A stretch of 64,000 bases of DNA from Flavobacterium pisciphilum (GTDB taxonomy: Bacteria > Bacteroidota > Bacteroidia > Flavobacteriales > Flavobacteriaceae): NCBI RefSeq assembly GCF_020905345.1, contig NZ_JAJJMO010000001.1, positions 4,278,001 through 4,342,000 on the forward strand. The letters run 5' to 3'. Positions 42,194 through 58,341 of the stretch are shown here, piece by piece. The translations under genes and the position numbers were made by a program. The first letter of the stretch is position 1. The number at the start of each line of letters is the position of its first letter. The notes beneath the pieces were generated by a model. It was not told the origin of the DNA, made no database searches, and was given only the letters and a program-made list of their open reading frames with translations.

Positions 42194-43161
42194 AACATCA
42201 GTTCTTACCGTTGTTCGAACAAGGAGAAGAAATGCCAAACTACGAAGGAACTGAAAAAGGATTTTTTGATTCGTTGAACATCCTGACAGGATTATATGGA
42301 TTCGAACAGATAGAAGTAGAGCACAAAACCTACCCTTACAATATCTTGTTGGCGCATAAGTATACTCAAAGACAACTTGAAAAATCAGGACAGGATATTG
42401 AACTTGTCATTATGCAGGATGATGATGGAGCGGTGAAATTGGCAACCAACCATAGTTATAATACAGGTACAACCTTGTATTATATTCCGGTACTTCCTTT
42501 GTACCGATTGTTACAGGACAAAAAACAGAAACGAACTGCCGAACTTCTGTTGTCTGTGTTTGGATATCTCTACCATATTGCACGGATTCCCTACTACAGG
42601 GAGAATCATACCTATCTATTTTATCAGTATGAATGTATGGAAGAATGGTTGATAGATGATTTGGAAAATTGCGAGAGCGATGATGCAAACAATGAATTTT
42701 CAGAATTTAATGGGGTAAACTACTACGGAGATATAATGCTACGAAAAATATACAATCCTTATCATCTGAATGTTTTTAAACAGCGAATTGATACCTACAA
42801 GTCAAAATCTTCATTTAGTCAGGATTGCCTAAACATTGCACAAAAAGCATTTGCTTTATTAACCGATTATCCTGATGCCAGCATTTTCCGAAATACCTTG
42901 AATCAGGAACTGGATGAAGATGATAGCATCATACACGCAGAACAATACATTTCTTTTATAGCGGATAGCGATGGTATGCTGTATGAGAACATTGCCCGTG
43001 TTGTCAACGATGAATTTAATGAATGTGGAGAAATCGAAGAACCCACACTACAGCAAATCTATGATAGCGAAAACAGTCCATCAAAAGAGCTACTTGATTT
43101 TGAATACCGAATTTTCCCTTTGATTAATGAACTATGTACCCTTTTAAACTATATACCATGA
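42145..43161 (+). CDS. PRTRC F-like protein, main part (larger frame)
   Basis: The frame reads GTVTDGFLKHQFLPLFEQGE and continues for 338 residues to TGA 43161. If translated alone, ATG 42232 is the best start because AAGGAG lies six bases before it, giving 309 residues. If joined to the 42017 frame the product is about 381 residues. The content is acidic (IVMQDDDGAVKLA, DDLENCESDDANNEFSEF) with many Tyr; no enzyme motif was seen. By its position between C and B it should be the PRTRC F member, which I assign by context more than by motif. Its stop overlaps the next start as ATGA. Confidence 0.65.
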   Translation, partial: QQTHLSTFGTVTDGFLKHQFLPLFEQGEEMPNYEGTEKGFFDSLNILTGLYGFEQIEVEHKTYPYNILLAHKYTQRQLEKSGQDIELVIMQDDDGAVKLATNHSYNTGTTLYYIPVLPLYRLLQDKKQKRTAELLLSVFGYLYHIARIPYYRENHTYLFYQYECMEEWLIDDLENCESDDANNEFSEFNGVNYYGDIMLRKIYNPYHLNVFKQRIDTYKSKSSFSQDCLNIAQKAFALLTDYPDASIFRNTLNQELDEDDSIIHAEQYISFIADSDGMLYENIARVVNDEFNECGEIEEPTLQQIYDSENSPSKELLDFEYRIFPLINELCTLLNYIP

Positions 43162-43874
43162 AAGATATAACAGCCGATTTCGGAACATTATACACTCCTG
43201 TAAAAGCCTTGGTAATCTATCAGAAAAATTCGTCTGACAAGACTACTTATGTGGAAAGCTACGACATGGATAAAAATGGCTATCCCACCAATGCCCATCC
43301 ACTGAGCGTAAAAGAAAGTACACTGCTTGCTAGTGCTTTAGATACTTCTGACGAACTCAAACGCAACTTTTTGAAACCTTTAGGATTGCTACCTAAAAAT
43401 GTACTGTATATCAATCCCGACCACGATGGCTATGCCATTTGGCATACACCATCCCAAAAGGTAGATTTGTTTTTTGTCGAGAGTTTAGGCATTCCAAACG
43501 GCAAAGCATTAATACCTCCTTTGCTTTGGAAAGCCTCTAAAAACACACTTTGGATATATGCATTGGGGGAAACTCTAGCCATTACAGAAACTACCCCTTT
43601 ATACAATGCCCCCTACTTTAATCTATACTCCGATGGTAGAGTTTGTATGGGAACCGTTTCAGTCAATAGTAAAACAGATTGCCTATTAGAAGAATTTATT
43701 CAGTCGTGGGAGCAGTACTTTTTTAACAGCTATTTCAGCCACCTGATTAGCGAGAAAAGCCCTGTGAAAGGAAACATTATTCAGTTGTGGCAAAGCCTTG
43801 TAAATACTCGCAAAAAGTTCCCCACAAAAGTCCTTATGAAAAACGGTCTAACCCTTAATAAACTACTGTCATGA
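43158..43874 (+). CDS. PRTRC system protein B
   Basis: The 238-residue protein starts MKDITADFGTLYTPVKALVI. It contains NVLYINPDHDGYAIWHTPSQ, LPPLLWKASKNTLWIYAL-like text (IPPLLWKASKNTLWIYAL) and APYFNLYSDGRVCMGTVSVN, which are typical of PRTRC B. I chose ATG 43158, whose ATGA overlaps the previous stop, rather than the in-frame ATG eight codons upstream at 43134. It overlaps the ThiF gene in the same way, so F-like, B and ThiF are translationally coupled. Confidence 0.82.
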   Translation: MKDITADFGTLYTPVKALVIYQKNSSDKTTYVESYDMDKNGYPTNAHPLSVKESTLLASALDTSDELKRNFLKPLGLLPKNVLYINPDHDGYAIWHTPSQKVDLFFVESLGIPNGKALIPPLLWKASKNTLWIYALGETLAITETTPLYNAPYFNLYSDGRVCMGTVSVNSKTDCLLEEFIQSWEQYFFNSYFSHLISEKSPVKGNIIQLWQSLVNTRKKFPTKVLMKNGLTLNKLLS

Positions 43875-44674
43875 ACACATTAAAACCAATGCATTACGCA
43901 GATAATTACCTGATAAATCCAACCAATCCCATCACAATTAATCTTATTGGTGCAGGAGGAACAGGAAGCAGGATGCTTACTGAACTGGCAAGAATGAACC
44001 ATAGCCTTATTGCTTTAGGACATACAGGATTGCAGGTTAGTTTATATGATGATGATAGGATAACCCAAGCCAATCAGGGGCGACAGCTTTTTGCCGATAC
44101 TGAAGTTGGTTTGTACAAATCAGTGGCACTCATTAACCGAACCAATCGTTTTTTTGGTACGAATTGGAAAGCCATAACTGAGCAGTTTTCTACAGTAAAC
44201 CTCAAATCTCTACCCAACCGCGGAAAAGCAAATATGTACATCAGTTGTATCGATACGGTATCGGCACGATTTGACATTGCAAAGGCTTTACAGGACTGCA
44301 CAGAAAACAGCAGTTGGGAACGCAATAAATCACTGTATTGGCTTGACCTTGGTAATTCACAAAATACAGGACAGGCGATATTATCTACTATTGGCGAAAT
44401 CAGGCAACCAAAATCCAAACTATACAGGACTGTTGCAAATCTTCCAATGGTTACCGATGAATTTAAAGAACTGCTAGAAGCACAGACCGAAAACAATGAA
44501 CCAAGTTGTTCGCTTGCTGAAGCACTCGAAAAACAGGATTTGTTTATCAATACTACACTAGCCAGTATGGGGGCTTCTTTACTTTGGAAGTTATTCCGTG
44601 AAGGTATGACAGCCCATAGAGGATTTTTTTGGAATTTGGGTAATTTCAGGTCAGAACCGATACTGGTGGGTTGA
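43871..44674 (+). CDS. PRTRC system ThiF-family (E1-like) protein
   Basis: The 267-residue protein has a Rossmann nucleotide site INLIGAGGTGSRMLTELARM (near residue 20), then LQVSLYDDDRITQANQGRQL, where ThiF/MoeB proteins carry DxDxVxxSNLxRQ, and MYISCIDTVSARF. It belongs to the ThiF/E1 adenylating fold. The canonical Cys-rich zinc site is not seen, so it may bind nucleotide without the usual sulfur-carrier chemistry. It is the last gene of the PRTRC cluster and is followed by two terminators. Confidence 0.85.
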   Translation: MNTLKPMHYADNYLINPTNPITINLIGAGGTGSRMLTELARMNHSLIALGHTGLQVSLYDDDRITQANQGRQLFADTEVGLYKSVALINRTNRFFGTNWKAITEQFSTVNLKSLPNRGKANMYISCIDTVSARFDIAKALQDCTENSSWERNKSLYWLDLGNSQNTGQAILSTIGEIRQPKSKLYRTVANLPMVTDEFKELLEAQTENNEPSCSLAEALEKQDLFINTTLASMGASLLWKLFREGMTAHRGFFWNLGNFRSEPILVG

Positions 44675-44681
44675 TGCCCGC

Positions 44682-44728
44682 CGCCCCGCAATTGCACTTC
44701 CTTCGTCGGGACAATTGCGGGGCGTTTT
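44682..44728 (+). terminator. Terminator of the PRTRC cluster
   Basis: CGCCCCGCAATTG (44682-44694) and CAATTGCGGGGCG (44712-44724) form a perfect 13-bp stem with TTTT behind it. It begins 8 bases after the ThiF stop. Confidence 0.88.
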
Positions 44729-44785
44729 AAGCGGATGCGCCCGCTTGCACAGAACATGCCTTTATTGGCAGTCATGCAAGCGGGC
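44729..44785 (+). repeat. Folded element, copy 1 (upstream of caspase gene)
   Basis: Hairpin 1: AAGCGG (44729-44734) with CCGCTT (44741-44746), loop ATGCGC. Hairpin 2: GCCCGCTTGCA (44739-44749) with TGCAAGCGGGC (44775-44785), perfect 11 bp, then ACGTTTTTA. The two hairpins share bases and exclude each other. A diverged copy with compensating changes lies at 46857-46911. Confidence 0.6.
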
Positions 44786-45100
44786 ACGTTTTTATTATTA
44801 CTATTTGAAATAATGTTAAACGTTTAATAATACAATAAAAAATATTTGAAAATTTATGAAATTAAATATTATATATTTGAGAATAAATAAAAGAGTCATC
44901 AAACTAGCCTAGAACTATTTCGAATACATATGTATGATAAAATTATACATAATAAATGAATTTATATCATTACGAAATCACTGTGGAGGTTGTGAAATTT
45001 ATTGGCAATTCTAATTTATTATTTGGCATTACTAAATAATAATAACAATTTGTAAATTAGTTGGAAGGATGGTTGGCTTCAATAATTAGATAATAAAAAA
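44786..45100. other. Intergenic region upstream of the caspase gene
   Basis: No gene was seen. A -7-like box TATATTTG (44872-44879) with TTG at 44846-44848 could start transcription, leaving a leader of over 200 bases before the ATG at 45101. Confidence 0.35.
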
Positions 45101-46603
45101 ATGAGTCAAAGATTTGGAATTTTAATAGGGATAAATGATTATTTAATAAATCCTTTGGATTATTGCGTAAATGACGTAAATAAAATTGAAGAAGTTTTAA
45201 TTAAAAATTGTCAATTTGACACAAACAACCTTAGAATAATTACTAGTGATAATGGTAGTTCTAATAAGGATATTGAAAGTTTATTCTACAATGCGGTTGA
45301 TAACATCAGTAGAGACTTTAGGCAGAATGAAGACAGTATCTTTTTCTTTTTTTCTGGACACGGTGTTCATCATGAAGAAGCTACTTTACTATTTCATTCT
45401 AAAGAGATAACTGTTTCACAAATATATGCCAAAATTAAAGATAAGTTAAACCCTAAAAATCAATTTTTAGTATTTGATGCTTGTCACTCAGGTGAGAAAA
45501 TAAAATCTGCAGTTGATGAAGATTTTTTTAAAGAACTCGATTGGAATAAACTTTCTTCAAAATCAGAAAATAAAACAATTATTGCAGCTTCTAGATTTGA
45601 TCAAAAAGCTACAGAAAAAAAAATTTTCCAAAATGGTACCTTAACTCATTACTTTCTAAAAGCAATCATTACAAAACAGAACTATAATGATTTAGGATTT
45701 ATTACACCGTCAGTAATTGCAGACTATGTAAGAAGGGAAGTTAGTTTAGATAAAAACTTTAATCAGATACCTTATACAAATAGTATTGATATTGGTAGCT
45801 ATCCTTTTGCTTTTTCAAAATATTTAGAGATAGGATATAAACCATTAGAAATTACTGAAATAAAAAGAGAAGAAACAAATAAGGAGAAAAACGTAAATGA
45901 GAAGACTATAATACGAACTGCTCCAACTGTATTTTTTATTGAAAAACTTTCAAAAGCCTTCCCAGGTATTAGGGGTTTAAAATGGTTTGTAGGAAAACCA
46001 GCTACAGACGGGTTAAAAAGATTTTTACTTGGGCCTCTCAGATTTGACGAGGCAAAAGATTATGGTGTATTTGCAGATCCTATATGGTGGTTTAGGGGAG
46101 GTAGTGCATTACCTGTTGCAAAGTTTGAAGATTTAGGAAATGATAAAATATTATTAAACAACGATGAATTAATTATTGATAAAATTGCTGTTTTTAATTC
46201 ATCTTCATATTACTCTAGTTTTATTTATATTCAAGTAACTGCTGACGTACCGTCCGGAGCATCCGAAATAAGTTCCGAAGATATAGAAAGACAAGTAAAA
46301 AGTATGGGCTATTGTTATGAGTCTTTTGGTATTTATAAAGACCATGTTGTGACGTCTGAGGAATACGAAGATGGTGCAGCAATTATTAATGGAGAATATA
46401 CCGAACTAACAGATTGTAAATTTAGACATAGGTATCTTTCAAAATATAATATTATTCTTGTTCCGAAATCATCACCCCATAATACAAGGGAGGGTAATTT
46501 ATTAGGTACAGAATATATGAATTCAATTCTCAAAGAAGAAAGAACTATAGAGCAATTTGCTAAAGAATACGAATTACTTCCAAGGAATCATATGGATCAG
46601 TAA
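45101..46603 (+). CDS. Caspase-like (C14) cysteine protease with unassigned C-terminal domain
   Basis: The 500-residue protein begins with a caspase-hemoglobinase fold: FGILIGINDYLINPLDYCVN, then SIFFFFSGHGVHHEEATLLF (catalytic His near 90) and FLVFDACHSGEKI (catalytic Cys near 127). The protease domain covers about residues 1-245. A 30-residue charged linker follows, then about 220 residues ending NHMDQ that I could not assign. In bacteria such proteases act as cell-death or defence effectors, cutting gasdermin-like or other targets after activation. No gasdermin is next door, so the C-terminal domain may sense or bind the trigger. The gene stands alone between two copies of a folded element and ahead of several defence modules. 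Confidence 0.85.
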   Translation: MSQRFGILIGINDYLINPLDYCVNDVNKIEEVLIKNCQFDTNNLRIITSDNGSSNKDIESLFYNAVDNISRDFRQNEDSIFFFFSGHGVHHEEATLLFHSKEITVSQIYAKIKDKLNPKNQFLVFDACHSGEKIKSAVDEDFFKELDWNKLSSKSENKTIIAASRFDQKATEKKIFQNGTLTHYFLKAIITKQNYNDLGFITPSVIADYVRREVSLDKNFNQIPYTNSIDIGSYPFAFSKYLEIGYKPLEITEIKREETNKEKNVNEKTIIRTAPTVFFIEKLSKAFPGIRGLKWFVGKPATDGLKRFLLGPLRFDEAKDYGVFADPIWWFRGGSALPVAKFEDLGNDKILLNNDELIIDKIAVFNSSSYYSSFIYIQVTADVPSGASEISSEDIERQVKSMGYCYESFGIYKDHVVTSEEYEDGAAIINGEYTELTDCKFRHRYLSKYNIILVPKSSPHNTREGNLLGTEYMNSILKEERTIEQFAKEYELLPRNHMDQ

Positions 46604-46649
46604 TACTGCACTGTATCACACTAAACTATATATTTAAAGGTAAATAAAT

Positions 46650-46760
46650 ATGATAAAGCAATTCACAGAGGATATAGTTCACAACAATGTTTCTTTATCT
46701 GAAGTTGTAACTATCTTTTAAACTTTTAGCTGTAGAAGTTGGAAACCAAACTTAATAAAA
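46650..46760 (+). pseudogene. Remnant of an AbiTii-like N-terminal domain
   Basis: MIKQFTEDIVHNNVSLSEVV ends at a stop (46719-46721), and right behind it another frame reads LLAVEVGNQ. The combined pattern VSLSEVV...LLAVEVGNQxLxK fits the start of AbiTii-type abortive-infection proteins (VSLSxLLRKxLVLAxxLGxxEL). The rest of the gene is missing. Support is a short motif only. Confidence 0.35.
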
Positions 46761-46856
46761 CCGTCTAAACTTTTAGGTATATTCTATAATCGTGGATTGA
46801 AATTTTTGTGACTCTGTAACTCCTCATGTTTTGTTAGGAAATTTGGAGGGCTTTCT

Positions 46857-46911
46857 AATTGGATGCACCCAATTGCGTGAACAAACGAAATCACTTTTTC
46901 ACACAATCGGG
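46857..46911 (+). repeat. Folded element, copy 2 (downstream of caspase gene)
   Basis: Hairpin 1: AATTGG (46857-46862) with CCAATT (46869-46874), loop ATGCAC. Hairpin 2: CCCAATTGCGTGA (46868-46880) with TCACACAATCGGG (46899-46911), one mismatch and one G-U. Same layout as copy 1, with different but still pairing stems and a conserved loop ATGC(G/A)C. Confidence 0.6.
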
Positions 46912-46918
46912 CGAGCGT

Positions 46919-49900
46919 TTAGTCATTAATAATACCTTTTGAGGAAATAAAATCATCTCGGATAATATAAGCAGTTGAAGATGCAGTCTCATCAATCAGT
47001 TTATCAAGTAGTAGGATAAAAGCATTTCTCAGCTTAGTAGATGTGATAACTTCCTTTCTTCTTACACCATCATAATAAGTTTGTATAACAATTTTTTCAA
47101 GGTAAAAGTTCCAATCTTTGTTGTTTGGCCATTCGTTTTTAATTCGCTCAGCCAGCCAGAAAATACCATCCGGCATTAACTCTTTATATCCTATTCCAGC
47201 AATTAATCTCCCTGAAGAGTTTAAATCAGCACCCTCTAAAATGATTGTTTCAAAAAAATGTTTTTTATTGTCTAAAGGTGCCCACTCCTTTTGTGTCAAG
47301 GATAGTATCCGATGATTAAGAAGAAGTGTTTTATCAAAAATGAAAGTATTAGTTGTTAAAATTTTATGGCTTAAATAATTCCATAAAATCCAAAAATTAT
47401 CGCTTTTAGATTCGTTGTTTATAAGTTGATTTATTAGTTCTTCTAGACATTTTTCTACAAAATCAAATTTTTTATTTGCATAATTACGTTTTGATCCTTC
47501 TACATAGACCCAGTTAATTAATATTTTAAAATGTTCAATTGCAGTATCTTCTGGCTGGCTTAGTAAAAATTGAGCAAATTTTTGATGAAAAAGTTGCTGT
47601 AAGGAGTAATGAAGTCTGTCATCATATGAGGTAGAATCTCTAGTCAGACTTTCAAATATGAAATTCAATACTTCTTTATAATAATCTTGCAGGATTTTTA
47701 GATCTGTATCTTGTGGTACCAGTTTTAAAGCTTCAAATAGCCAGTCACTTCCATTTTTTTCATAGTCAGGAATTTCAATTTGAGAAGGAGCGACTCCTGC
47801 ACCAACTTTATCCATTATTTTATTAATTGCACTATTGTACTCATGCAATATTTTGTTATAATTCTTATCACTGGATTGATGATTTGAGGCTCTATAGCCT
47901 GGATTAATAGTCAGTCGGATATTGCTGTAGATTTCTTTTAAAAATGCAAAAGGGGATATTTTAGAGGAGGTTTCAACTCTTCTAAAATATTGAAGATTCT
48001 GTTTTAGAAATGAGATTTTCGAATACTCAATAATCGAACTGATACAGAGTAAGACGAAGGCAGGATCAGACTGCCAAAGATTTTGTCTTATTGATTCTAT
48101 TAGAGAACGGCATTCCGATCTATCAGTAAGATTTATTAAAGCGAAGACCATGTATTGCCTTAGATCTTTCTTTTCAGATTCCTCAGCATAAGACATTATA
48201 AGAGGGAGAACTGAAAAAGCAGCTTCCGTTTCATAAACTGTATATTTAGAATGCTGCAAATCTAAATGTTGTTTATTTTCAAAAAGCTCATATTTAAAAA
48301 GTTCAATTATTTTATCGTTAGACCATTCTTTTTCTAAAGGTGTTAAGCAAGAATAAAAATCTCTGATGCCAATAGAAGCTATCAATACTGCTTGTTTATA
48401 TCTCGAATTTATCTCTATATTATTTTCAGCAGCTTTGGAAATTAAATAAAATTCCGACCATTTCGCATAATTATTTTCCTCAACAATTTCATGTCTTAGT
48501 TTTTTCATACACCAGTATGACGCGTGTGATACTGGATTAGTAATTGCCTGCCTCTCCTTATGCTGCTCAACAACTTTTTTCAGGTCTTCTTCTAAATTTG
48601 TTTCCATTAAAAAGCCATTCTCAACTTCTCCGACAATTTTATACTTTCTTTTGTCTATTCTAGTGAGCGCAAAACGCCACGCTTGATCTGTAGGGTTCTC
48701 AGAATTAAATTTATCTATTATCTGAAAGATATCAGCTTCGTACTGTCCCTGACTGAGATTCATTACTAGATCCTCAATACTTTTGCTTCTATGTTTCAGG
48801 TTTTGAAAATTCTGTAACTGCAGATGACGTAATTGGCTCTGTCTTTTGTAACTAATGGGACTGAAGGCTTCTGTTTCATTTATACACCTGTTAAAATCCA
48901 ATTTATATATCTCTTTGATTTTTAATAAAGGAAAAATTTTATTTCCAACAATATCCATATGCTCGTTTGCAACACTTATTAGTATGGCATCAGTCATAAC
49001 ATTATTGCTTTTGCTGATTAAAACGTCAAAGCTGTAATCCCAAAGCCTCTTTAAAATTTCAGTGTACTGCTCATCTTCATTTTCTTTGATATCTTTACCT
49101 ATATGAAGTAAATAGCATTCTAGTGCCATAAGGGTACACTTTAATAGATCTGGAACATTATTATAAGTACCTCTGAACATCATCCACAATGTCGGGCTTG
49201 CATGATGTCTAATTTTATTGCCATCTGGCATTGTTATAGTTATTTCAGACCGTACATCAGGAGGGAACAAAAATTGATTGCTTTTTCCGAAATCTGAATT
49301 AATATAAGAGTTTGCAGAATGATTAAATAACTTTATTAAAAAATTTAAGGTTCTAAAAGGTGAGACTAAAAGAAGATTTAATATTGGAGTTTCATAAGGG
49401 CTTGCAGGGGAATAATCATGGGAAGTACTTTCTTGTATGCCGAAATTATTTTCACTGTGAATACCTGATCGGTAATGAGGTCCAAAAAGTGATTTCTTTG
49501 CCATTTCAGCAATTTCCTCTGGAGTTGGAGGATAATAAAACCAATCTTTCTCTGCAATTTCCAAAACAAGCTCGGGATAGTTTTTACAAATATTTTTACC
49601 TTCATATCCATCAAGGACATAATCTAAAATTTTATCATATAAATTTCCAATTGCAAGGTCTACCGCACTTTTTTTATTTCGAAATGCGACCTCTATAATA
49701 ACTTTCAAGTCTTCTTTAACAACATCAGCCAGATTAAAAAGTAATAAAATGCCCTTGTTTAAATCGTCAGTTTTTGACCTTTTCAGATCGGGTGTAACAG
49801 TTGATGTAAATATTTTATAATACCATATTAAGATCTTACCAACATGCCCTGCCTCGGCTGGAAATGGCTGAGCTTGTTTAAAACCCTTTTCCCACTGTAA

Positions 49901-52051
49901 CATCATTAATAGTATTAATTTCATTTGAGTTTGCAGAACATCCAGATTAAAAAAAATAAATTCAATAAGATTAGGCCAGCCCTCCCCAAAAGGAATTAGG
50001 TTGATATTATGATATAATTCTGTTCTTTTTTCCTGCTCTATTACGCTGAGAAGTGTGAAGTCTGGTTTTTGGCATGCAACCTGCACTAAAAAGTTTATTC
50101 TTTTGAAATATTCAAAATTATTTAAAAATAGAAAGTCTTTATTCTCTTTCAAAAAATCCCTACTGTAGGGAGACTGCATAATAGCAATAAGTATCTCGTC
50201 CTTCCAGTATTTTTGTGTTTTTTGCTCCCTAAGTGTTGCTTTTAAAAATTGATTGATGGTCTCATTAATAGTTTGTATTTTTTCTGATATCCAAATTCTA
50301 AAGGCCCTTCTAACCGCTGGAGTTGATCCTAGACTTTCGTAAAAATTATCATAATTTCCTTGATCAATAATGTATTTTAAGTAATTATAATCAATATGTC
50401 GCGTTAATGCCCAGTCTTCGTAAATGTCGTGCGCAGGAGCAAAACTATTTTTATAAACAGGTTCAGGATCAATGATGTTGTCGGCAATTAGAGAATATAA
50501 TATTTTCTGTGGGGCATCATCAACAGTTGTATATGCACTCATGGCGGCAGTTCTTTGCAAAGCAATTTTCATGAAAATTTCTCCACGTAATTTTCTCTGA
50601 TCAACCTCAGTTATTTTGTCAAGGCCTTCAATGACATATTCCCACATAATTTGTTTGAACTTTACCTCAGAATCTACATCATTACTTAGTGAATTTTCGG
50701 GTAATGTAACCGCCTTATCAAGATTAAACGGTATTTGAAGAACTTTCGAAAGAGAAATATTATCCAGCAAAGATACTAGGGCAGGGTAGGTCTCGGCGAC
50801 AGTATTAAGTTCAATCTTGTCAAGAAGTGGTACTTCAAAATTGGGAAAAGGGGGGAACTGTCTTAAAAAACGTATTTTTAACTGTTCAACCGCATAACTC
50901 CTGCAGGTAAGGACTAACGTTATATTAGGTCTCTTAGAAAGTAATTCAAAGAAATCGAGTATAGTATCAGCATTATTGGTTTCCAATACTTTTTCTATAC
51001 TGTCTATTAAGAGTATATGAGATTTGTCATATGCTGGCGAATTAAGTATGTCTGCAAATCTGGTTTTAAAATTAAAAGGAGGTTCAGAAAATAGTTGCTC
51101 AATATTTTCCCTGTCTAGTTGCTCACCCTGCAAAGCTAAAATTTCGTATTCATTCTTCAGGTTCTCAAAAATATTCTTGACTAGAGCAGATTTACCAGCC
51201 CCCGGTTTTCCTGTAAAAATGGCCAGTCGGTTACTTTTTATAACTGTTGTTGCTTCTGCTGTTACTTTGGTACGTGGAAGATTAACCTTTCCAACACTGC
51301 TTCTTACTCTTGAAAGAACCCGCATGGAATTTTCATTAAGCTTTTCAATCGCATCAAGAATAGTCTCATCTGTTTCTATTTCATGAATTGATAGAGTTTG
51401 TAATGTTTTTGATAAGAGAAGATCATTAACCAGATTAAGATTAATTCCCAGAATTCGTTTATTTTTTCTCTCATAACCGAGAAATAATCCACAGCAAAAA
51501 AAGATGTTTTTTACTTTTATAAATATTGGACTTCCAGAATACCCTTCAACAAGATTGTCGTCATTATATTCACCAGTTAGGGGATCAGAGAGTTCAATCT
51601 GTATTTGGTTGCTGTGATCCTTATCATTAAGTGTTTTTAATTGATAAAGCGTTCTTTTTAATTCGTTCTGAACTATTTTAGGATAACCTGTTATCTCAAG
51701 CAGATGATCTTTTTGTGGAACCATGCAGAGAGATGGACATTTGGTGTAATCTAGAATTACGGGCAGGGATGATTTTTTGATCACTAAAACCCCGATATCT
51801 TCAACTTCATTATTTTTTCCAAATATTATAATGTCATCTGTTTTTAAATTATATTTTGACCATTTATTTTCGATAAGAAATTCAATTGAAAGTTCCTGAG
51901 CAGTCCATGGAACTTCTTCGACACTAACAAGAGAATGTCTTGCGGCAAACACATATACCACTTCCGCATCCTGAGTTGGAGAATAAATGAATCCGCCACT
52001 GTATCCTGCAGGGTTTTCAATGCGTATTATAAAATCTTTAGCTGTTGTCAT
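46919..52051 (-). CDS. Trypsin-like protease fused to STAND/AAA NTPase (AVAST type 1-like)
   Basis: The 1710-residue protein starts with a trypsin-fold protease (residues 1-220): GYSGGFIYSP, VFAARHSLVS (His near 38), EDIGVLVIKK, and EGYSGSPIFIK (Ser near 175). An NTPase follows with P-loop FTGKPGAGKSALVKN (near 280), Walker B SHILLIDSIEKVLE (near 345) and NITLVLTCRSYAVEQL (sensor). About 1150 residues of helical C-terminal sensor sequence complete it. As I recall, type 1 AVAST systems combine an MBL hydrolase, a trypsin-like protease and a STAND NTPase; here the last two would be one chain. The C-terminal part would recognise a phage protein, and the protease or the MBL enzyme would execute the response. 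Start ATGA overlaps the MBL stop. Confidence 0.78.
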   Translation of the reverse strand: MTTAKDFIIRIENPAGYSGGFIYSPTQDAEVVYVFAARHSLVSVEEVPWTAQELSIEFLIENKWSKYNLKTDDIIIFGKNNEVEDIGVLVIKKSSLPVILDYTKCPSLCMVPQKDHLLEITGYPKIVQNELKRTLYQLKTLNDKDHSNQIQIELSDPLTGEYNDDNLVEGYSGSPIFIKVKNIFFCCGLFLGYERKNKRILGINLNLVNDLLLSKTLQTLSIHEIETDETILDAIEKLNENSMRVLSRVRSSVGKVNLPRTKVTAEATTVIKSNRLAIFTGKPGAGKSALVKNIFENLKNEYEILALQGEQLDRENIEQLFSEPPFNFKTRFADILNSPAYDKSHILLIDSIEKVLETNNADTILDFFELLSKRPNITLVLTCRSYAVEQLKIRFLRQFPPFPNFEVPLLDKIELNTVAETYPALVSLLDNISLSKVLQIPFNLDKAVTLPENSLSNDVDSEVKFKQIMWEYVIEGLDKITEVDQRKLRGEIFMKIALQRTAAMSAYTTVDDAPQKILYSLIADNIIDPEPVYKNSFAPAHDIYEDWALTRHIDYNYLKYIIDQGNYDNFYESLGSTPAVRRAFRIWISEKIQTINETINQFLKATLREQKTQKYWKDEILIAIMQSPYSRDFLKENKDFLFLNNFEYFKRINFLVQVACQKPDFTLLSVIEQEKRTELYHNINLIPFGEGWPNLIEFIFFNLDVLQTQMKLILLMMLQWEKGFKQAQPFPAEAGHVGKILIWYYKIFTSTVTPDLKRSKTDDLNKGILLLFNLADVVKEDLKVIIEVAFRNKKSAVDLAIGNLYDKILDYVLDGYEGKNICKNYPELVLEIAEKDWFYYPPTPEEIAEMAKKSLFGPHYRSGIHSENNFGIQESTSHDYSPASPYETPILNLLLVSPFRTLNFLIKLFNHSANSYINSDFGKSNQFLFPPDVRSEITITMPDGNKIRHHASPTLWMMFRGTYNNVPDLLKCTLMALECYLLHIGKDIKENEDEQYTEILKRLWDYSFDVLISKSNNVMTDAILISVANEHMDIVGNKIFPLLKIKEIYKLDFNRCINETEAFSPISYKRQSQLRHLQLQNFQNLKHRSKSIEDLVMNLSQGQYEADIFQIIDKFNSENPTDQAWRFALTRIDKRKYKIVGEVENGFLMETNLEEDLKKVVEQHKERQAITNPVSHASYWCMKKLRHEIVEENNYAKWSEFYLISKAAENNIEINSRYKQAVLIASIGIRDFYSCLTPLEKEWSNDKIIELFKYELFENKQHLDLQHSKYTVYETEAAFSVLPLIMSYAEESEKKDLRQYMVFALINLTDRSECRSLIESIRQNLWQSDPAFVLLCISSIIEYSKISFLKQNLQYFRRVETSSKISPFAFLKEIYSNIRLTINPGYRASNHQSSDKNYNKILHEYNSAINKIMDKVGAGVAPSQIEIPDYEKNGSDWLFEALKLVPQDTDLKILQDYYKEVLNFIFESLTRDSTSYDDRLHYSLQQLFHQKFAQFLLSQPEDTAIEHFKILINWVYVEGSKRNYANKKFDFVEKCLEELINQLINNESKSDNFWILWNYLSHKILTTNTFIFDKTLLLNHRILSLTQKEWAPLDNKKHFFETIILEGADLNSSGRLIAGIGYKELMPDGIFWLAERIKNEWPNNKDWNFYLEKIVIQTYYDGVRRKEVITSTKLRNAFILLLDKLIDETASSTAYIIRDDFISSKGIIND

Positions 52052-53094
52052 CCTATTGTAAAATGAAGGTGGTTTTTTCCTTGATCAGGGAATTTTAAAT
52101 TGATTTGAAAGTCTTTATCAACTTTGAAAATATTTCTTGTAAGCTCGTTTTCCTGTGTTATATGAAAATTTATAATTTTGTCAGGATTGGCATGGAGCAC
52201 TTTGACTAAAGTTTCCTTATTGGGTAAATTCGATCTGTTGAATCCGTCCGCTGAAATGATATAATCCTCACAGTCAATCAATTCAAGAAGAGAGTTACTG
52301 ATGTTGTACCTGCTTCCATGATGAGGAATCTGCATGTATTTAAGCTTTAATTTTCTGTCTTTACAAATTCTGTTAATTGAATAGGCTAGAATATCTGAAT
52401 GGCTGTCAGCCGAAAACAATATAGATTCATTATTAAATTGCAGTATGAAGGAAATACTTGAGCCATTTTCTACTGAAGCATCTTTCACTTCCTTGCTAAT
52501 ATCGAAATCCTCAATTTTTTTATTGTAGTCGTTTTTTCGATTGGTTTTCAAAGATGAGGTTTCTGATTCTCTTATTTTAATTTCTGCATTTTTCCAGACG
52601 TTCAAAAGTGCATTATATTTTTGATTGTTAGGGGACAAAATTGTAGCCGTTGCTCCCCATAAATCAATAATATCATCATCTGTAATGCTTTCTCTTATAT
52701 TGGAATTTTCAATAATATAATTTCTTAATGTGATGCCCTGCTTGACGTTTTTTAGATTATTTGTACGTATACCACTGTCATAATCCCAATTGGAATAATT
52801 GAACCAGAAGGTTGTTCTGGATAAATCAACAGCCTCTAGTAATTCAATATCTTTTAAAAGGCGAAGAATACCACCTATATGATCGTCATCAATATGTGTT
52901 ATAATCCAAATATCTATTATTTCCTTTTTAATGTTGACTATTTCATCTATTCTTTTTCTCAGCCCTTTTTCATAGAGGTTTCCCTTCTCACTACCGCCAT
53001 CAATTAAGATATTATGAGGTTTATTATCACTACCGATAAAATTAATATGAATTGCATCTGCACAGCCTGCATCTAGAAAATCTATGTTTATCAA
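52048..53094 (-). CDS. MBL-fold (ComEC/Rec2-like) hydrolase, partner of the protease-NTPase
   Basis: The 348-residue protein has metallo-beta-lactamase-fold motifs: MINIDFLDAGCADAIHINFI, ILIDGG, WIITHIDDDHIGGILRLLKD (the HxDDDHxGG metal site near 65), SILFSADSHSDI (where nuclease- and lactonase-type members have a metal Asp), and YMQIPHHGSRYNIS. The pattern is that of the ComEC/Rec2 branch, which often hydrolyses nucleic acids. It shares four bases with the start of the trypsin-STAND gene, so both proteins are made together. It is likely the effector or a regulator of the system; the substrate is unknown. Confidence 0.82.
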   Translation of the reverse strand: MINIDFLDAGCADAIHINFIGSDNKPHNILIDGGSEKGNLYEKGLRKRIDEIVNIKKEIIDIWIITHIDDDHIGGILRLLKDIELLEAVDLSRTTFWFNYSNWDYDSGIRTNNLKNVKQGITLRNYIIENSNIRESITDDDIIDLWGATATILSPNNQKYNALLNVWKNAEIKIRESETSSLKTNRKNDYNKKIEDFDISKEVKDASVENGSSISFILQFNNESILFSADSHSDILAYSINRICKDRKLKLKYMQIPHHGSRYNISNSLLELIDCEDYIISADGFNRSNLPNKETLVKVLHANPDKIINFHITQENELTRNIFKVDKDFQINLKFPDQGKNHLHFTIG

Positions 53095-53204
53095 AGTATA
53101 AAGTTATTAGTAAGATTCTTTATAAAATTACAATTATTTACAGCATACACAACTTATGCAGTCTGCAAACTAAACATTATATTTACTTGCACAATAAAAA
53201 ACCT

Positions 53205-55337
53205 ATGACACTAGCAGCTGTTTACATAAACGATCATTTTTTGTTTGATCAGCCTCAAACATTGAACTTTGGAGGAAGATTTATTTATAAATTTGAAAGT
53301 ATTGATGATCGGACATTTATGGTGATTTTCACAGAAAACCCAAGTTTTATGGAAGGTTTCTGGGGGAGAGGGATTTCTTCTTTATCAGCGGTTGTTGGGG
53401 CCAATGGATCCGGGAAAACAAGTATCCTTAAAGTGATAAATAAAGGGTACCAAGAATTTACAAAAGCGATTTTTATTTATGAGGATGCTGATGGACATTT
53501 TTTACTAGACAATCGGACAGGAGATAGAAATGAATCAGGACAGTTTGTAAAGGGGACAGGCATAACAGTTTATTTTCCACCAGGCATAAAGTATACTAAA
53601 TCTACTCCTGAAGGATTTACTGAATTGTATTTTTCGCCAATTTTTGATCCGAAAATAGAAGATTTTTTTTCGCATTTAGGTTTAAATTCAAGTCATCCGG
53701 AAAAAATGATAGGTGAAGTTTTTATGGAGAATATTCGAAAGGATGTAATTTTCTTAAATGCGGATGTAAGTAAAAAAATTAAGGAGGCGTATCCTGATTT
53801 TCCAACTTATGAAAGTCTGAATATAATTCCAAAAAAGTTATACAAACGTGATTTTAGAAAAGTATATAATGATACAAATTTAGGAAACCCCAAAAAAAAT
53901 GAAACACTGCAGGTTACTATAGAAAGAGATTTAAGTGTTAAAGATTATTCAAATCCTGAATTTCTTTTAAACTCATACCTTGATATCCTGAAATCTTCTA
54001 ATATCTTGGATGCACTAAATGAAATCTGGGATATGCCGGCTTACAGAAATAGTATACAGCATAATGAACACCTTGTGCATAGCTCTCGAGATTTTATGAA
54101 GGATATCGAAATCAATATTCTGTCTTTTCTGGTTATTAATGACATATTTGCGATAACGGATCTTACTGGTTCTTTTAATTTTGAGAGAATTTTAAATAGT
54201 AAGAGTTTTGACGAGCTGTTAAATCATTTTTTGGTAAAATATATTGTCCAAATTGATAAGAATTTTTACAGGTATGAAGATAAAATCAAGCTTGACAATT
54301 ATACTGAACTTATGGATATTGTCATGAACGAATATGGTAAATTTGAGCAGCTGTCGGGAGTTAAGACCGAATCCCTGAAATCAAATATAATGCATCATGT
54401 GAATGGTTTTAAATCGATTAAAAGCCTTCATGAGATATTTGTCACCCTTTCAGACAACATCGTTTTTGAAAATGGAAGGTCAATATTAAAAATTGATGTC
54501 GACAGAGAAGATATAGAAGATCTAACAAAGGCTCTTTTTGATGTATATGCAAAAGTACGTGAGTACTTTTCAAATATTCCAATTGCACTAAAAGACGTTG
54601 TAGATATAGAGTCTAATAAGAATTTATCTTATGGTGAGAAATCGATTCTAAATCTATATTCAACATTCCACGATTTTACCTTTACAAATAATCATGTTAG
54701 GGAATCGGAAAATTTTTTGCTGATTCTTGATGAAGCTGACCTGGGATATCATCCAATTTGGAAAAGAAAATTTATAAACACTTTATGTGAAACTCTCCCA
54801 ATAATTTTTGCTCAATTAAAGCCAGCTGTATGGGACAGTGTTGCTAAAAGAAAGAAGTCTAGCAATAATGAAAATCCACGTTTACAAATTGTGATTGCAA
54901 CCCATGACCCGTTAACATTGTCCGATTTTCCAAGCAGTAATATAATTTACCTTAAGAAAGACAGCAATCGTAAAACTATAGTTTTAAATAGTGAAATAGA
55001 TCCGAAGAAGTCATTTGGAGCAAACATTACAGATCTCTTAGCAGATTCGTTTTTTGTAGAGAATGGTTTAATAGGAGATTTTGCCAAGAAAAAGATTGAA
55101 CATACTATCATGTGGCTCAATGAACAAAAGCAGAAAAAAGAAGAATTAGGATCATCTTACGTATTAGATCAGGAAGAATTCGTCCATCACCAAAGCATCA
55201 TAAAGATAATTGATGAGCCGGTTATTAAAATCAAATTAGCAGAAATGCTTGATGAATTAAATGACCAGATAGATGTACAGAAAGAAATTATTCAGAGAGA
55301 AATTGATTTGCTGAATGAAAAGCTTGGAAGATTATGA
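53205..55337 (+). CDS. AAA ATPase of a Septu-like (PtuA-type) defence pair
   Basis: The 710-residue protein has a RecF/SMC-like ATPase split across the chain: Walker A VVGANGSGKTSILKV (near residue 63), signature region SYGEKSILNLYSTF (near 475), Walker B FLLILDEADLGYHPIWKR (near 503) and the His switch ATHDPLTLSDFP (near 565). The C-terminal 130 residues are helical. I chose ATG 53205: the 51 residues before it look like noise and would overlap the divergent MBL gene. The next gene, an HNH nuclease, starts in ATGA overlap. ATPase-HNH pairs of this form are Septu (PtuA-PtuB); the ATPase controls the nuclease. Confidence 0.82.
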   Translation: MTLAAVYINDHFLFDQPQTLNFGGRFIYKFESIDDRTFMVIFTENPSFMEGFWGRGISSLSAVVGANGSGKTSILKVINKGYQEFTKAIFIYEDADGHFLLDNRTGDRNESGQFVKGTGITVYFPPGIKYTKSTPEGFTELYFSPIFDPKIEDFFSHLGLNSSHPEKMIGEVFMENIRKDVIFLNADVSKKIKEAYPDFPTYESLNIIPKKLYKRDFRKVYNDTNLGNPKKNETLQVTIERDLSVKDYSNPEFLLNSYLDILKSSNILDALNEIWDMPAYRNSIQHNEHLVHSSRDFMKDIEINILSFLVINDIFAITDLTGSFNFERILNSKSFDELLNHFLVKYIVQIDKNFYRYEDKIKLDNYTELMDIVMNEYGKFEQLSGVKTESLKSNIMHHVNGFKSIKSLHEIFVTLSDNIVFENGRSILKIDVDREDIEDLTKALFDVYAKVREYFSNIPIALKDVVDIESNKNLSYGEKSILNLYSTFHDFTFTNNHVRESENFLLILDEADLGYHPIWKRKFINTLCETLPIIFAQLKPAVWDSVAKRKKSSNNENPRLQIVIATHDPLTLSDFPSSNIIYLKKDSNRKTIVLNSEIDPKKSFGANITDLLADSFFVENGLIGDFAKKKIEHTIMWLNEQKQKKEELGSSYVLDQEEFVHHQSIIKIIDEPVIKIKLAEMLDELNDQIDVQKEIIQREIDLLNEKLGRL

Positions 55338-56314
55338 TTTACTTGGATCCCAGTAGTGCCAAGATTAAAGATGCACATGCAAATCATCATGCTAAATTAC
55401 TGACTATTATTAAAGCAAGAATCATTCTGCATGCTGATGCAGTAGTAACAGCATTTCTAAATGATGATAATTTGGATATTATTTTAAAGGGAGCGCCTGA
55501 TCAATTGATTCAGATACAAATGCAATTTTTCAGCAGCGTTGTTCCAGGATACAATTTCGCAGAGTGGCTGACCTATTTTAAATTTAAACGAAAACCGGTA
55601 GCGTCAAGGACAGCAGCTGAAATAACAATTTTAGCAAAGTATGGTAACTTTTACAGTCAGTTAAACCAAATATTTGATTATGATAAGTTTTCTTCAAAAA
55701 AGAATTTAGTATATTCTACATATGACCTTGCTCATAAATTAAATATCAATACCTGCACGTACTGTAATAGGATGTATACTAAGACTGTAATCAAGCCACA
55801 AAAGCTTACTCGTCCTGAATTTGATCATTGGTTCGCAAAAAGTCGATACCCACTCTTGGCATTATCTTTTTACAATTTAATTCCCAGCTGCAATATATGC
55901 AACAGTAGTATTAAAGGTTCAAATGAAATGACATTAGCAACTCATCTGCATCCTTACATTGATAAGCCGGAATTTAAATTTACATATTACAATAAAAGTT
56001 TTGATACTTATGGTTTTACTATCATTTCAGCCCCTGGATCGAAATCATATAATACGGTATCTGCTTTCAAAATAAAAGAAATTTATGAAATGCACGAAGA
56101 TGAAATAGACGATTTACGTAAAATAAAATCTGCTTATTCGGAAAGTTACCTCACTATTCTAGCAAACCAGTTTAAGGGATTATCAATTTCCGAAGACGAA
56201 ATGTACAGGCTTGCTTTTGGAACGTATAATGATGAGGAACTTTTTGATAGAAGACCTCTCAGCAGAATGAAAAGAGATATACTATTGGAATTAGGAATTA
56301 TAAAAAAGAAGTAG
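55334..56314 (+). CDS. HNH endonuclease of the Septu-like pair (PtuB-type)
   Basis: The 326-residue protein contains NINTCTYCNRMYTKTV, then RPEFDHWFAKSRYPLLALSF and YNLIPSCNICNSSIKGSNE (about residues 145-200). Two CxxC zinc pairs flank an HNH core (DHW...S.YP...N), the layout of PtuB and related HNH nucleases. It should cut nucleic acid when released by the ATPase. It is much longer than the smallest PtuB; the C-terminal 120 residues are extra. A weak AATAGC-CTTC-GCTATT hairpin (56347-56362) follows the stop. Confidence 0.82.
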   Translation: MIYLDPSSAKIKDAHANHHAKLLTIIKARIILHADAVVTAFLNDDNLDIILKGAPDQLIQIQMQFFSSVVPGYNFAEWLTYFKFKRKPVASRTAAEITILAKYGNFYSQLNQIFDYDKFSSKKNLVYSTYDLAHKLNINTCTYCNRMYTKTVIKPQKLTRPEFDHWFAKSRYPLLALSFYNLIPSCNICNSSIKGSNEMTLATHLHPYIDKPEFKFTYYNKSFDTYGFTIISAPGSKSYNTVSAFKIKEIYEMHEDEIDDLRKIKSAYSESYLTILANQFKGLSISEDEMYRLAFGTYNDEELFDRRPLSRMKRDILLELGIIKKK

Positions 56315-56396
56315 AAATTCTGAATTAATATTAGTTTAATGTTTTGAATAGCCTTCGCTATTATGTTACGAAATAGTTTAATTAACATCTTTATTT

Positions 56397-57737
56397 ATGA
56401 CAAATGAATCAAAAAAACATCATTATTTGCCTCAATTTGTTCTGCGAAGATTTAGTATTGATACAAAAGGAAAACAAATTTATGTTTTTGATAAGCAGAC
56501 TGAAAAATGTTATACCTCGTCAATATTAAATAGTGGCAGTGAAAACGACTATAATACTGTCTTAACTGATACAGAAGAGTTCAATTTTGAGTATCTTTTC
56601 CAGAAAACAGATAACTTATATGCAGAACTTACGAGAAAAATAATTGAGCAAGGATCTTTTGACGGACTTGATTACGATGATTTTAAGTCTTTAGCTTTAG
56701 TAACAGTAAATCAGCTGAGAAGAACTAAGCTTGAGAGGTCAACAATGGATTATGTTAACAGAGAAATTTATAATACAATTGAAAAAGCAATTAAGGACTT
56801 AAAAGGCCACTATACGAATGGTCATGAAAGGTTAACTTCCGAGGAAATTAAAGCTTTTTCAATTATGGGTGTCTTTGATACTGAAGAAGAAATTCGTTCA
56901 CTTCTTACTATGGGTATCTATTTAATTAAAAACCGGACAGGGCTTCCATTTTTAATATCGGACACTCCTGTAGTTTTTGATAATAATTTTGATTATGGAG
57001 GACTAGGAATTTTTGAAAAGGGAATTGAAATATACCTGCCTATAAGTCCTGAATATTTAGTAGGTTTTTGTTGCCCTACAATAATAAATAAATTGCAGAT
57101 AGCGGATAATTTAGGAACTTTAGATATCGAGGCTACAAAGTTTTTAAGAGCACTTGAAGAAGACCATCCTTTAATATTAGAGGATCTAAATCACGTTAAA
57201 TATTACAATAGTCTTCAAGTATTAAAGTCCTATCGTTTTATATATAGTACTATTGATGTTTCCAGTTTAGTAAAAGGAATAATTTCACACAATCCAAAAA
57301 TTAAGTTTAATGAAACAACTGTAAGGTTGGGGGAGATGGGAAAGGGACCTCCTCCAAATAAAAATCTCCCAATGGGCGATTTATTGATTATTTTTGGAAA
57401 TAAGGATCACAATATGTTGCCCGTAAAAATTATTAGCGCCTCTCAAGAAAAGGTAGAATTTAAATGCGAAAAAAGCTTTTTGCTCTCAACTGTGTTAGCT
57501 GATATTCCCTATGAAAGAGCCGAGTGGCATTGTGATCAGTCTTTAAGATGGGCACTTGGAAAACCTGAAATAAACATTATTGATCAAGCGAATGATTTAT
57601 ACGAGTTAACTTATTCAGATAAAAAAATGTTTCAAGTTTTTGAGATGATAAGAAATGAAAAGAAGAAAAAAGAGGGGAATTTTAAGCAAAGTAGATTACG
57701 GCGATTTCTAAATTTTATAAGAATAATAAAAAAGTAA
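56397..57737 (+). CDS. DUF4238 protein
   Basis: The 446-residue protein starts with ESKKHHYLPQFVLRRFSIDT followed by KGKQIYVFDKQT, the classical DUF4238 opening (KHHYxPxFxLRxF). Near residue 180 it has the typical NRTGLPFLISDTPVVFDNN and then IEIYLPISPEYLVGFCCPT. The function of DUF4238 is not known to me; members are often found in defence islands. The gene lies 82 bases behind the Septu-like nuclease on the same strand and may be either its third component or a neighbour. The C-terminal tail is Lys/Arg-rich. Confidence 0.85.
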   Translation: MTNESKKHHYLPQFVLRRFSIDTKGKQIYVFDKQTEKCYTSSILNSGSENDYNTVLTDTEEFNFEYLFQKTDNLYAELTRKIIEQGSFDGLDYDDFKSLALVTVNQLRRTKLERSTMDYVNREIYNTIEKAIKDLKGHYTNGHERLTSEEIKAFSIMGVFDTEEEIRSLLTMGIYLIKNRTGLPFLISDTPVVFDNNFDYGGLGIFEKGIEIYLPISPEYLVGFCCPTIINKLQIADNLGTLDIEATKFLRALEEDHPLILEDLNHVKYYNSLQVLKSYRFIYSTIDVSSLVKGIISHNPKIKFNETTVRLGEMGKGPPPNKNLPMGDLLIIFGNKDHNMLPVKIISASQEKVEFKCEKSFLLSTVLADIPYERAEWHCDQSLRWALGKPEINIIDQANDLYELTYSDKKMFQVFEMIRNEKKKKEGNFKQSRLRRFLNFIRIIKK

Positions 57738-57765
57738 CTGTTTAATAAAGAAAGTTTTATGAATA

Positions 57766-58341
57766 ATGACAGAAAAAATGAAGGAAGATTTGATAAAGGA
57801 TTTAATCTCAAATGCAAACTGTTCTTTGAGATTCGGGTATTACATCAATGATATTGTTGAAAACGTGAAATGTCAAGGCTGTTTGCGCGGACTTACTGTG
57901 CCTGTAGAGCCTAATTTCTAATATAAGCCCAATGATTTGATCAAAAATAATATGTTCCAAATGAAAACTTTAAAGGATGGAAACCTTACTGTCGTATGTG
58001 CACTGATTAGTCCTAAAAATCAAAGTAGGATAGATTTTAGTTATCTGCCCCTGATTTACATTTTAAAAAAAATTCAGTAGTCCGAAACCTTATACTGATC
58101 TTGATATTGTATGTCTTGTGGATTGGAAATTCTTTATTGGTAAAGCCAAACATATCGGTACAGCTTTTTTTGATAAATATTCTCAAAAAACTCACGTGCC
58201 TTGACACGCTGGTAGTTATAACAAAGGAAAATTTCCCTGCCATGGAAACCATATGAAAAACTTGAGAAAGCAAAAAATACTCTTGAAAGCAAATTAGCTA
58301 AATTGCTTATTAGGCCTGATTTATCAGCTGTTGGGGGGTAG
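57766..58341 (+). pseudogene. Decayed gene with several stops and frameshifts
   Basis: Coding-like fragments follow one another in different frames: MTEKMKEDLIKDLISNANCS (57766-57921, complete with stop), LKDGNLTVVCALISPKNQ, then TDLDIVCLVDWKFFIGKAKH and finally EKLEKAKNTLESKLAKLL ending GG and a stop at 58339. No continuous frame exists. The DUF4238 gene upstream and the STAND gene downstream are intact, so this is a lost component of the island. Its family was not identified. Confidence 0.5.

Follow-up and report, generated by a model that had tools for sequence, protein, structure and literature searches.

An Avs4-class sensor joined to a trypsin-like protease and paired with a ComEC-like MBL protein in Flavobacterium pisciphilum

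We analyzed a window of 64,000 nucleotides from Flavobacterium pisciphilum (contig NZ_JAJJMO010000001.1, positions 4,278,001 to 4,342,000, of a 5.46-Mb genome in two contigs). On its reverse strand, which also carries every feature of the locus described below, lie two adjoining genes (46919..53094 of the window). The first codes for a ComEC-like metallo-beta-lactamase (MBL) protein and the second for a single chain in which a trypsin-like protease, a STAND NTPase and a large C-terminal sensor follow one another. Judging from sequence comparisons, this is an AVAST locus with an Avs4-class sensor, in which an MBL-trypsin effector pair replaces the Avs4 nuclease. It is likely that the two genes provide an abortive-infection-type defense in which the sensor would switch on the protease, and the protease an MBL pro-nuclease. 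Relatives already provide both the components and the mechanism, and what appears to be new is their combination with an Avs4 sensor. A preliminary description of this DNA had instead proposed an AVAST type 1-like system with protease and NTPase newly fused.

Relationship of the sensor to Avs4

The protein that carries the sensor (46919..52051, ATG start) is 1710 aa long, and its reading frame is not a product of chance because it has many full-length relatives with 31-90% identity, among them one from Flavobacterium cupreum at 84% and one from F. panici at 81%. Residues 216-1701 match the Avs4 model of PADLOC with 517 bits. Positions 1-146 of that model, which form the nuclease end, are unmatched, and the trypsin-like domain stands there instead. 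The best PDB match is the Avs4 structure 8dgf (E 7.5e-57), which also takes ranks 1 and 2 in a Foldseek search (E 9e-32 and 1.5e-31) and is described in its PDB title as Avs4 bound to portal. An hhalign comparison with the Avs4 of an Escherichia coli plasmid extends over profile columns 235-1695 (E 3e-101). Family profiles built separately for the NTPase region (residues 216-600, 50252..51406) and for the sensor (residues 601-1710, 46922..50251) reach the same protein at E values of 1.5e-45 and 9.2e-103, respectively. The sensor comprises about 1110 residues, near the figure of about 1150 given previously.

Relationships to Avs1 lie in the MBL protein, the protease and the P-loop region. Searches of the 1710-aa protein with PADLOC (E<=0.01) and with NCBIfam models (E<=0.1) gave no match to Avs1b, and neither the NTPase nor the sensor family profile matched the Avs1b protein of a public Avs1 locus on a Priestia plasmid (L017) at E<=10. 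With hhalign, similarity to Avs1b runs over columns 13-397 (E 1.8e-13) and stops after the P-loop region. The interval directly downstream (46560-46960), which is the part of the window searched for Avs1c, holds no Avs1c-sized gene, and its largest unassigned open reading frame (ORF) is 40 aa. On the PADLOC, NCBIfam, profile and hhalign results and the lack of an Avs1c-sized gene directly downstream, we reject membership in AVAST type 1. A comparison with Avs1 components, which the preliminary description had recommended, thus finds the MBL and trypsin parts related and the NTPase and sensor not. The assignment to type 1 has to be dropped, while the AVAST-like character is upheld by the Avs4 homology and the MBL-protease effector is retained.

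The Priestia locus also bears on the fusion of protease and NTPase. It encodes an Avs1a MBL protein of 404 aa, a chain of 1939 aa and an Avs1c protein of 88 aa. The long chain has no other annotation than serine protease. It aligns from end to end with the NCBIfam Avs1b model of 1931 positions, at a score (1077 bits) that falls below the cut-off of 1500, and it matches the PADLOC Avs1b model with 1119 bits. Its trypsin domain lies at residues 19-154 and its P-loop at 236. By this comparison, a protease-NTPase fusion appears to be ordinary in Avs1, and the fusion in F. pisciphilum is therefore not a novelty. The preliminary description had held the opposite, namely that type 1 encodes the two separately, and it had taken the fusion as direct proof of a single complex in which sensor and protease work together, a conclusion that is not supported. 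The idea of a new subtype survives in the sense of a distinct variant. Its unusual feature is the pairing of effector with sensor, not the fusion.

Protease and NTPase domains

The trypsin-like domain occupies residues 1-215 (51407..52051). Pfam gives no trypsin match in the 1710-aa protein at E<=0.1, so the call depends on profile, fold and triad evidence. The profile-profile match to the trypsin-STAND protein Avs1b noted above (columns 13-397) takes in its trypsin part. A profile of eight trypsin domains, which is mixed in that it includes Lamassu and Avs1b examples, found protease-HamA (PDB 9wh1, E 3.6e-12) together with many serine proteases. A structural model of 1000 residues of the protein has a mean predicted local distance difference test score (pLDDT) of 85.4 and a predicted template modeling score (pTM) of 0.61. 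Foldseek places Avs4 first for this model. NLR proteins of humans and other animals come next, and serine proteases rank lower down, with matches that span about 230-260 columns that the table does not assign to particular model residues.

In the family alignment, the catalytic triad consists of H39 (51935-51937), D85 (51797-51799) and S172 (51536-51538). The preliminary description had pointed to the region of Ser 175; a catalytic serine is indeed present, at residue 172. We assembled 75 relatives of the sensor family and took 48 of them from the alignment as trypsin-bearing (P0001-P0050 minus P0045 and P0047). All three triad residues are kept in 47 of the 48, and the exception (P0026) is a sequence without the His region. 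The adjoining NTPase region matches Pfam nSTAND3 with 33.4 bits (cut-off 27.2) and contains the P-loop GKPGAGKS (residues 281-288, 51188-51211) and the Walker B motif LLIDS (residues 347-351).

The MBL protein and its predicted gating loops

The upstream gene (52048..53094) encodes 348 aa from a TTG start and shares the four nucleotides ATGA (52048..52051) with the downstream gene as stop and start, respectively. Both frames are as first described, and the same overlap is found in F. cupreum (L001) and F. panici (L002). The second codon is ATA in the window (TTG ATA AAC) and ATG in the F. cupreum relative (TTG ATG AAC).

The protein matches Pfam Lactamase_B (27.4 bits, cut-off 22.7), and its best fold match is the MBL domain of ComEC. 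The metal-binding motif HIDDDH (residues 67-72, 52879..52896) contributes H67, D71 and H72, which are invariant, along with D230, H258 and H259, in the 50 sequences of one MBL alignment (A1). Among named MBL families, the PADLOC scores are 229 for a model labeled LmuA, 163 for RTasMBL and 89 for Avs1a. The NCBIfam Avs1a model gives 124 bits, under its cut-off of 420, and Apyc1 is a weak profile match. We predict a ComEC-like MBL nuclease with metal ligands and a putative activity that may be held back by two loops.

The model of this protein is of high overall quality (mean pLDDT 91.5), and values below 50 are limited to residues 115-118 and 179-184. Two blocks of its profile, 2-78 and 203-295, can be aligned to ComEC, and the segment that separates them (profile positions 79-202) exceeds its ComEC counterpart by about 62 residues. 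Both low-scoring stretches fall inside this longer segment, where we predict gating loop 1 (residues 100-119, 52738..52797) and gating loop 2 (residues 170-197, 52504..52587). Each contains a similar short sequence, DYDSGI at 104-109 and DYNKKI at 189-194.

This repetition extends to relatives. The pattern D-[YFHW]-x3-[ILVMF] is present in loop 1 of 74 and in loop 2 of 88 of the 89 close MBL relatives, and in both loops of 74 (0.3 expected from shuffled loops); in a wider set it occurs in both loops of 77 of 121 sequences. Residue by residue, the 89 relatives keep D104 in 86, Y105 in 79, D189 in 88, Y190 in 85 and F197 in all. Ile and Leu account for 40 and 23 of the 89 residues at position 109 and for 59 and 20 at position 194; the register relative to the Avs1a sites is ambiguous. 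Relatives of Avs1a have another signature, a conserved Ile at two sites (116 and 113 of 120 sequences) followed by Ser in 100 and 116, respectively, and this agrees with the published cleavage of Avs1a at Ile (PMC12799240). There are therefore two repeated loop signatures, one per clade, and both may mark the places where the cognate protease cuts.

It is tempting to go further and propose a separate AVAST class, in which an Avs4-type portal sensor controls a protease-gated MBL nuclease with D-Y-x3-I/L in both loops, unlike the I-S-A of Avs1a. We consider this possible but doubtful. Several points also call for caution about the loop motif and the gating. The motif was spotted by eye in the alignment before it was counted, and the 89 sequences are related to one another. 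As a general rule, a strict D-[YF]-x3-I had to be rejected, given that both loops carry it in only 7 of 120 Avs1a relatives (0.07 in shuffled loops); the looser form occurs in 8 of 120 (0.8 in shuffled loops). The motif is consequently not general, and the cut residue in the F. pisciphilum protein is a candidate. A gating role is also less sure for loop 1, since it has about 20 residues compared with roughly 50 in Avs1a.

Linkage and distribution

The MBL and trypsin-STAND frames overlap in all five loci viewed with both genes (the window, L001, L002, L015 and L016). To extend the comparison, we paired sequences by equal contig size, using the best 120 of 542 MBL matches and the longest contig per cluster, a procedure that may overlook some pairs, such as those of non-trypsin relatives with distant MBL proteins. 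By this measure, 26 of the 48 trypsin-bearing relatives have an MBL relative, and the 27 non-trypsin relatives include a single one of this kind, P0045, which is a fragment cut at its N-terminus. Tree distances of sensor and MBL protein correlate over 28 pairs (Mantel r 0.913, p 0.0001), 25 of which were paired on equal contig size alone.

In a FastTree phylogeny of NTPase and sensor (83 leaves, 1410 columns, rooted with E. coli Avs4), one clade of 56 leaves (support 0.945) takes in all 49 that bear trypsin, and the remaining 27 leaves lie outside it. Seven members of the clade lack the trypsin domain, six of them having another N-terminus of 257-274 residues and one (P0047) having just 61 residues there. 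Because the trypsin leaves form a single clade with these seven non-trypsin members, the tree fits one acquisition of the domain followed by replacement or loss; re-acquisition is possible too. Six loci (L005-L009 and L025) encode Avs4-like sensors that start with another domain, about 257 residues long. Pfam gives no match for this domain in the three examples tested (L005, L009 and L025), and by eye it may resemble a Cap4/DUF4297-type nuclease.

The trypsin-bearing form is rare in genomes. Among 397 genomes of the family, 11 have a sensor match (E<=1e-30), and the trypsin motif occurs within the first 300 residues in one genome only (G000); the sensor ORF of a second genome (G001) is N-terminally short. 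Among 395 genomes of the phylum, three have a sensor match at the same threshold, and the trypsin-sensor combination is found in G000 and G644. Both samples include G000 and G001, and scoring was limited to no more than two candidates in each listed genome.

Proposed mechanism and alternatives

The anatomy of the locus comprises the domains, the intact triad, the P-loop, the metal ligands, the homology to Avs4, the linked MBL gene and the two low-confidence loops. Related systems suggest how these parts might work together. In Hachiman, a protease cuts two loops of an MBL protein after isoleucines and thereby yields a DNase (Tuck et al. 2025, PMC12799240). The same study reports that the Hachiman protease cleaved its nuclease and not the other proteins tested, that Avs1 cleavage during infection occurs beside one isoleucine, and that defense is lost when both isoleucines are changed, and it argues that the protease is triggered by oligomerization of the defense protein. 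The phage protein recognized is the large terminase in Avs families 1-3 and the portal in Avs4, and recognition leads to oligomerization (PMC12724215).

By analogy, the C-terminal sensor would meet a protein of phage packaging, for which the portal is the likeliest candidate, and the trypsin-STAND protein would then oligomerize through its NTPase as Avs proteins do. The trypsin-like protease, which takes the place of the Avs4 nuclease, would become active in the oligomer and cut one or both of the disordered MBL loops (about 100-119 and 170-197), which are predicted to gate the active site. The freed MBL nuclease could then degrade phage and host DNA. The triad, the MBL neighbor, the co-variation of the two proteins and the two disordered loops fit the published activation of MBL nucleases by proteases.

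The ligand is the step at which the most serious alternative arises. We favor the portal because the sensor is homologous to Avs4 and Avs4 has been assigned to the portal (PMC12724215); moreover, the entire sensor aligns with an Avs4 protein that was solved as a portal complex. However, identity to Avs4 is just about 24% in the sensor, the NCBIfam Avs4 score of 561 bits is far below the equivalog cut-off of 1500, and the superposition on 8dgf is loose (TM score 0.44 by query, root-mean-square deviation 15.9, model pTM 0.61). For these reasons, portal specificity may fail. Because terminase, portal and Ksap1 all serve as triggers among Avs1-4 (PMC12931631), the same effector mechanism might respond to terminase or some other phage protein, and we regard this as a real, though lesser, prospect.

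The other explanations appear less plausible to differing degrees. Other MBL-fold proteins act on signal molecules. It is conceivable that the protease kills or arrests cells directly by acting on cellular or phage proteins, with the MBL protein as an ancillary hydrolase (e.g., of a signal molecule) or a brake, and the weak match to Apyc1 is in keeping with this. Yet ComEC is the best fold match, the two loops are present, and the Hachiman protease spared every other protein tested (PMC12799240), all of which makes direct action by the protease unlikely. A true AVAST type 1 system with a newly fused protease and NTPase could draw on the resemblance of the MBL protein to Avs1a and on the trypsin domain common to Avs1b. 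Against it stand the fused state of Avs1b itself, an Avs1b match that ends past the P-loop region, NTPase and sensor profiles that do not reach Avs1b, the missing Avs1c-sized ORF and the higher PADLOC scores of the LmuA-labeled and RTasMBL models, and we give this reading very little credence. Least credible is a decayed or inactive locus. The trait is indeed rare, having been found in two genomes in samples of 397 and 395, but both frames are intact, the catalytic residues are retained and the close relatives are intact. We therefore keep to an MBL pro-nuclease released by a sensor-controlled protease as the preferred account.

Comparison with known systems

The locus shares with AVAST type 4 the NTPase and the whole C-terminal sensor, and differs from it in the trypsin-like domain that stands for model positions 1-146, in the MBL partner gene and in the NCBIfam score (561 vs 1500). 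With AVAST type 1 (Avs1a/b/c) it shares the layout of an MBL gene upstream of a trypsin-STAND fusion, but its sensor is unmatched past the P-loop region, no Avs1c-sized ORF follows and its MBL score remains low (124 vs 420). Pairs of nuclease and protease in Hachiman, Lamassu, DRT and AVAST (PMC12799240) have an upstream MBL pro-nuclease with two loops, as predicted here, and likewise an N-terminal trypsin fused to a defense protein. The loop signature in the window differs from theirs, and the term 'Avs4' was not found in the main text of that paper.

A trypsin domain on another AVAST type is probably already represented in PADLOC. The N-terminal positions of its Avs2 model PDLC02163 match the trypsin domains of a Lamassu LmuA protein (L018) and of a Haliscomenobacter relative (L016), consistent with trypsin-Avs2 proteins; this model has no match to the window protein in PADLOC at E<=0.01. 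In addition, NucA-trypsin conflict systems couple a trypsin-like peptidase to a nuclease through a predicted proteolytic cascade, and in some of their operons trypsin is fused to a STAND NTPase (PMC7159879, 2020). Those systems use NucA, of the HNH superfamily, rather than an MBL protein and have Death-like domain fusions, and 'MBL' is not among the terms used in that text. The trypsin stretch of the Avs2 model and the NucA trypsin-STAND fusions make a mixing of effectors already visible. Our literature search found no Avs4-class sensor with MBL and trypsin, but its coverage did not extend to the founding AVAST papers (Gao et al. 2020, 2022), so the combination may already be published.

Two plasmid loci are of further interest. 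A Runella plasmid (L022, 8713-13870) encodes an MBL protein and a trypsin domain fused to a TPR-GreABC-PIN chain (PF20698), which makes it another host for the MBL-trypsin effector pair; no system name for it was found in the libraries tried. On the Haliscomenobacter plasmid (L016), genes for a nucleotidyltransferase and a SLATT protein (5447-6908) lie immediately upstream of the MBL-Avs pair.

Neighboring genes

Several other genes of the window deserve mention; those at 43134-44671, 45101-46603, 53205-57737 and 61550-63511 are on the forward strand. A caspase-like peptidase (45101-46603; Peptidase_C14, 62.8 bits) is convergent with the Avs gene. We considered it as a partner, by comparison with caspase-nuclease (canu) loci; tblastn finds a counterpart in neither of the 21-kb loci of F. 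cupreum and F. panici. On the other side of the locus, a divergent pair encoding an AAA ATPase and an HNH protein (PADLOC PDC-M62A/B) and a DUF4238 gene occupy 53205-57737; they adjoin the MBL-Avs pair in F. panici as well and were not found in F. cupreum. Beyond them lie a protein of 979 aa that matches LmuA weakly (58342-61278) and a second PDC-M62A-like ATPase (61550-63511), and this stretch looks like a defense island. Adjacent Prok-E2_D and ThiF proteins (43134-44671), which are E2/E1-like, belong to a ubiquitin-like pathway. No tRNA was found in the window, and Rfam gives no match in 44000-58000.

Implications

If protease and substrate have indeed diverged together, as the clade-specific loop signatures may indicate, they would form private pairs that do not cross-react, and one effector could be combined with various sensors and still not be activated falsely. 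The MBL-trypsin cascade appears to be interchangeable even between AVAST types whose sensors share no sequence match, and this supports the view that effector modules move as a gene pair. Nature offers about 50 sensors of the Avs4 class that bear trypsin, and many of them come with a linked MBL gene and a candidate signature for the cut. They could be used to ask whether such cascades are insulated from one another.

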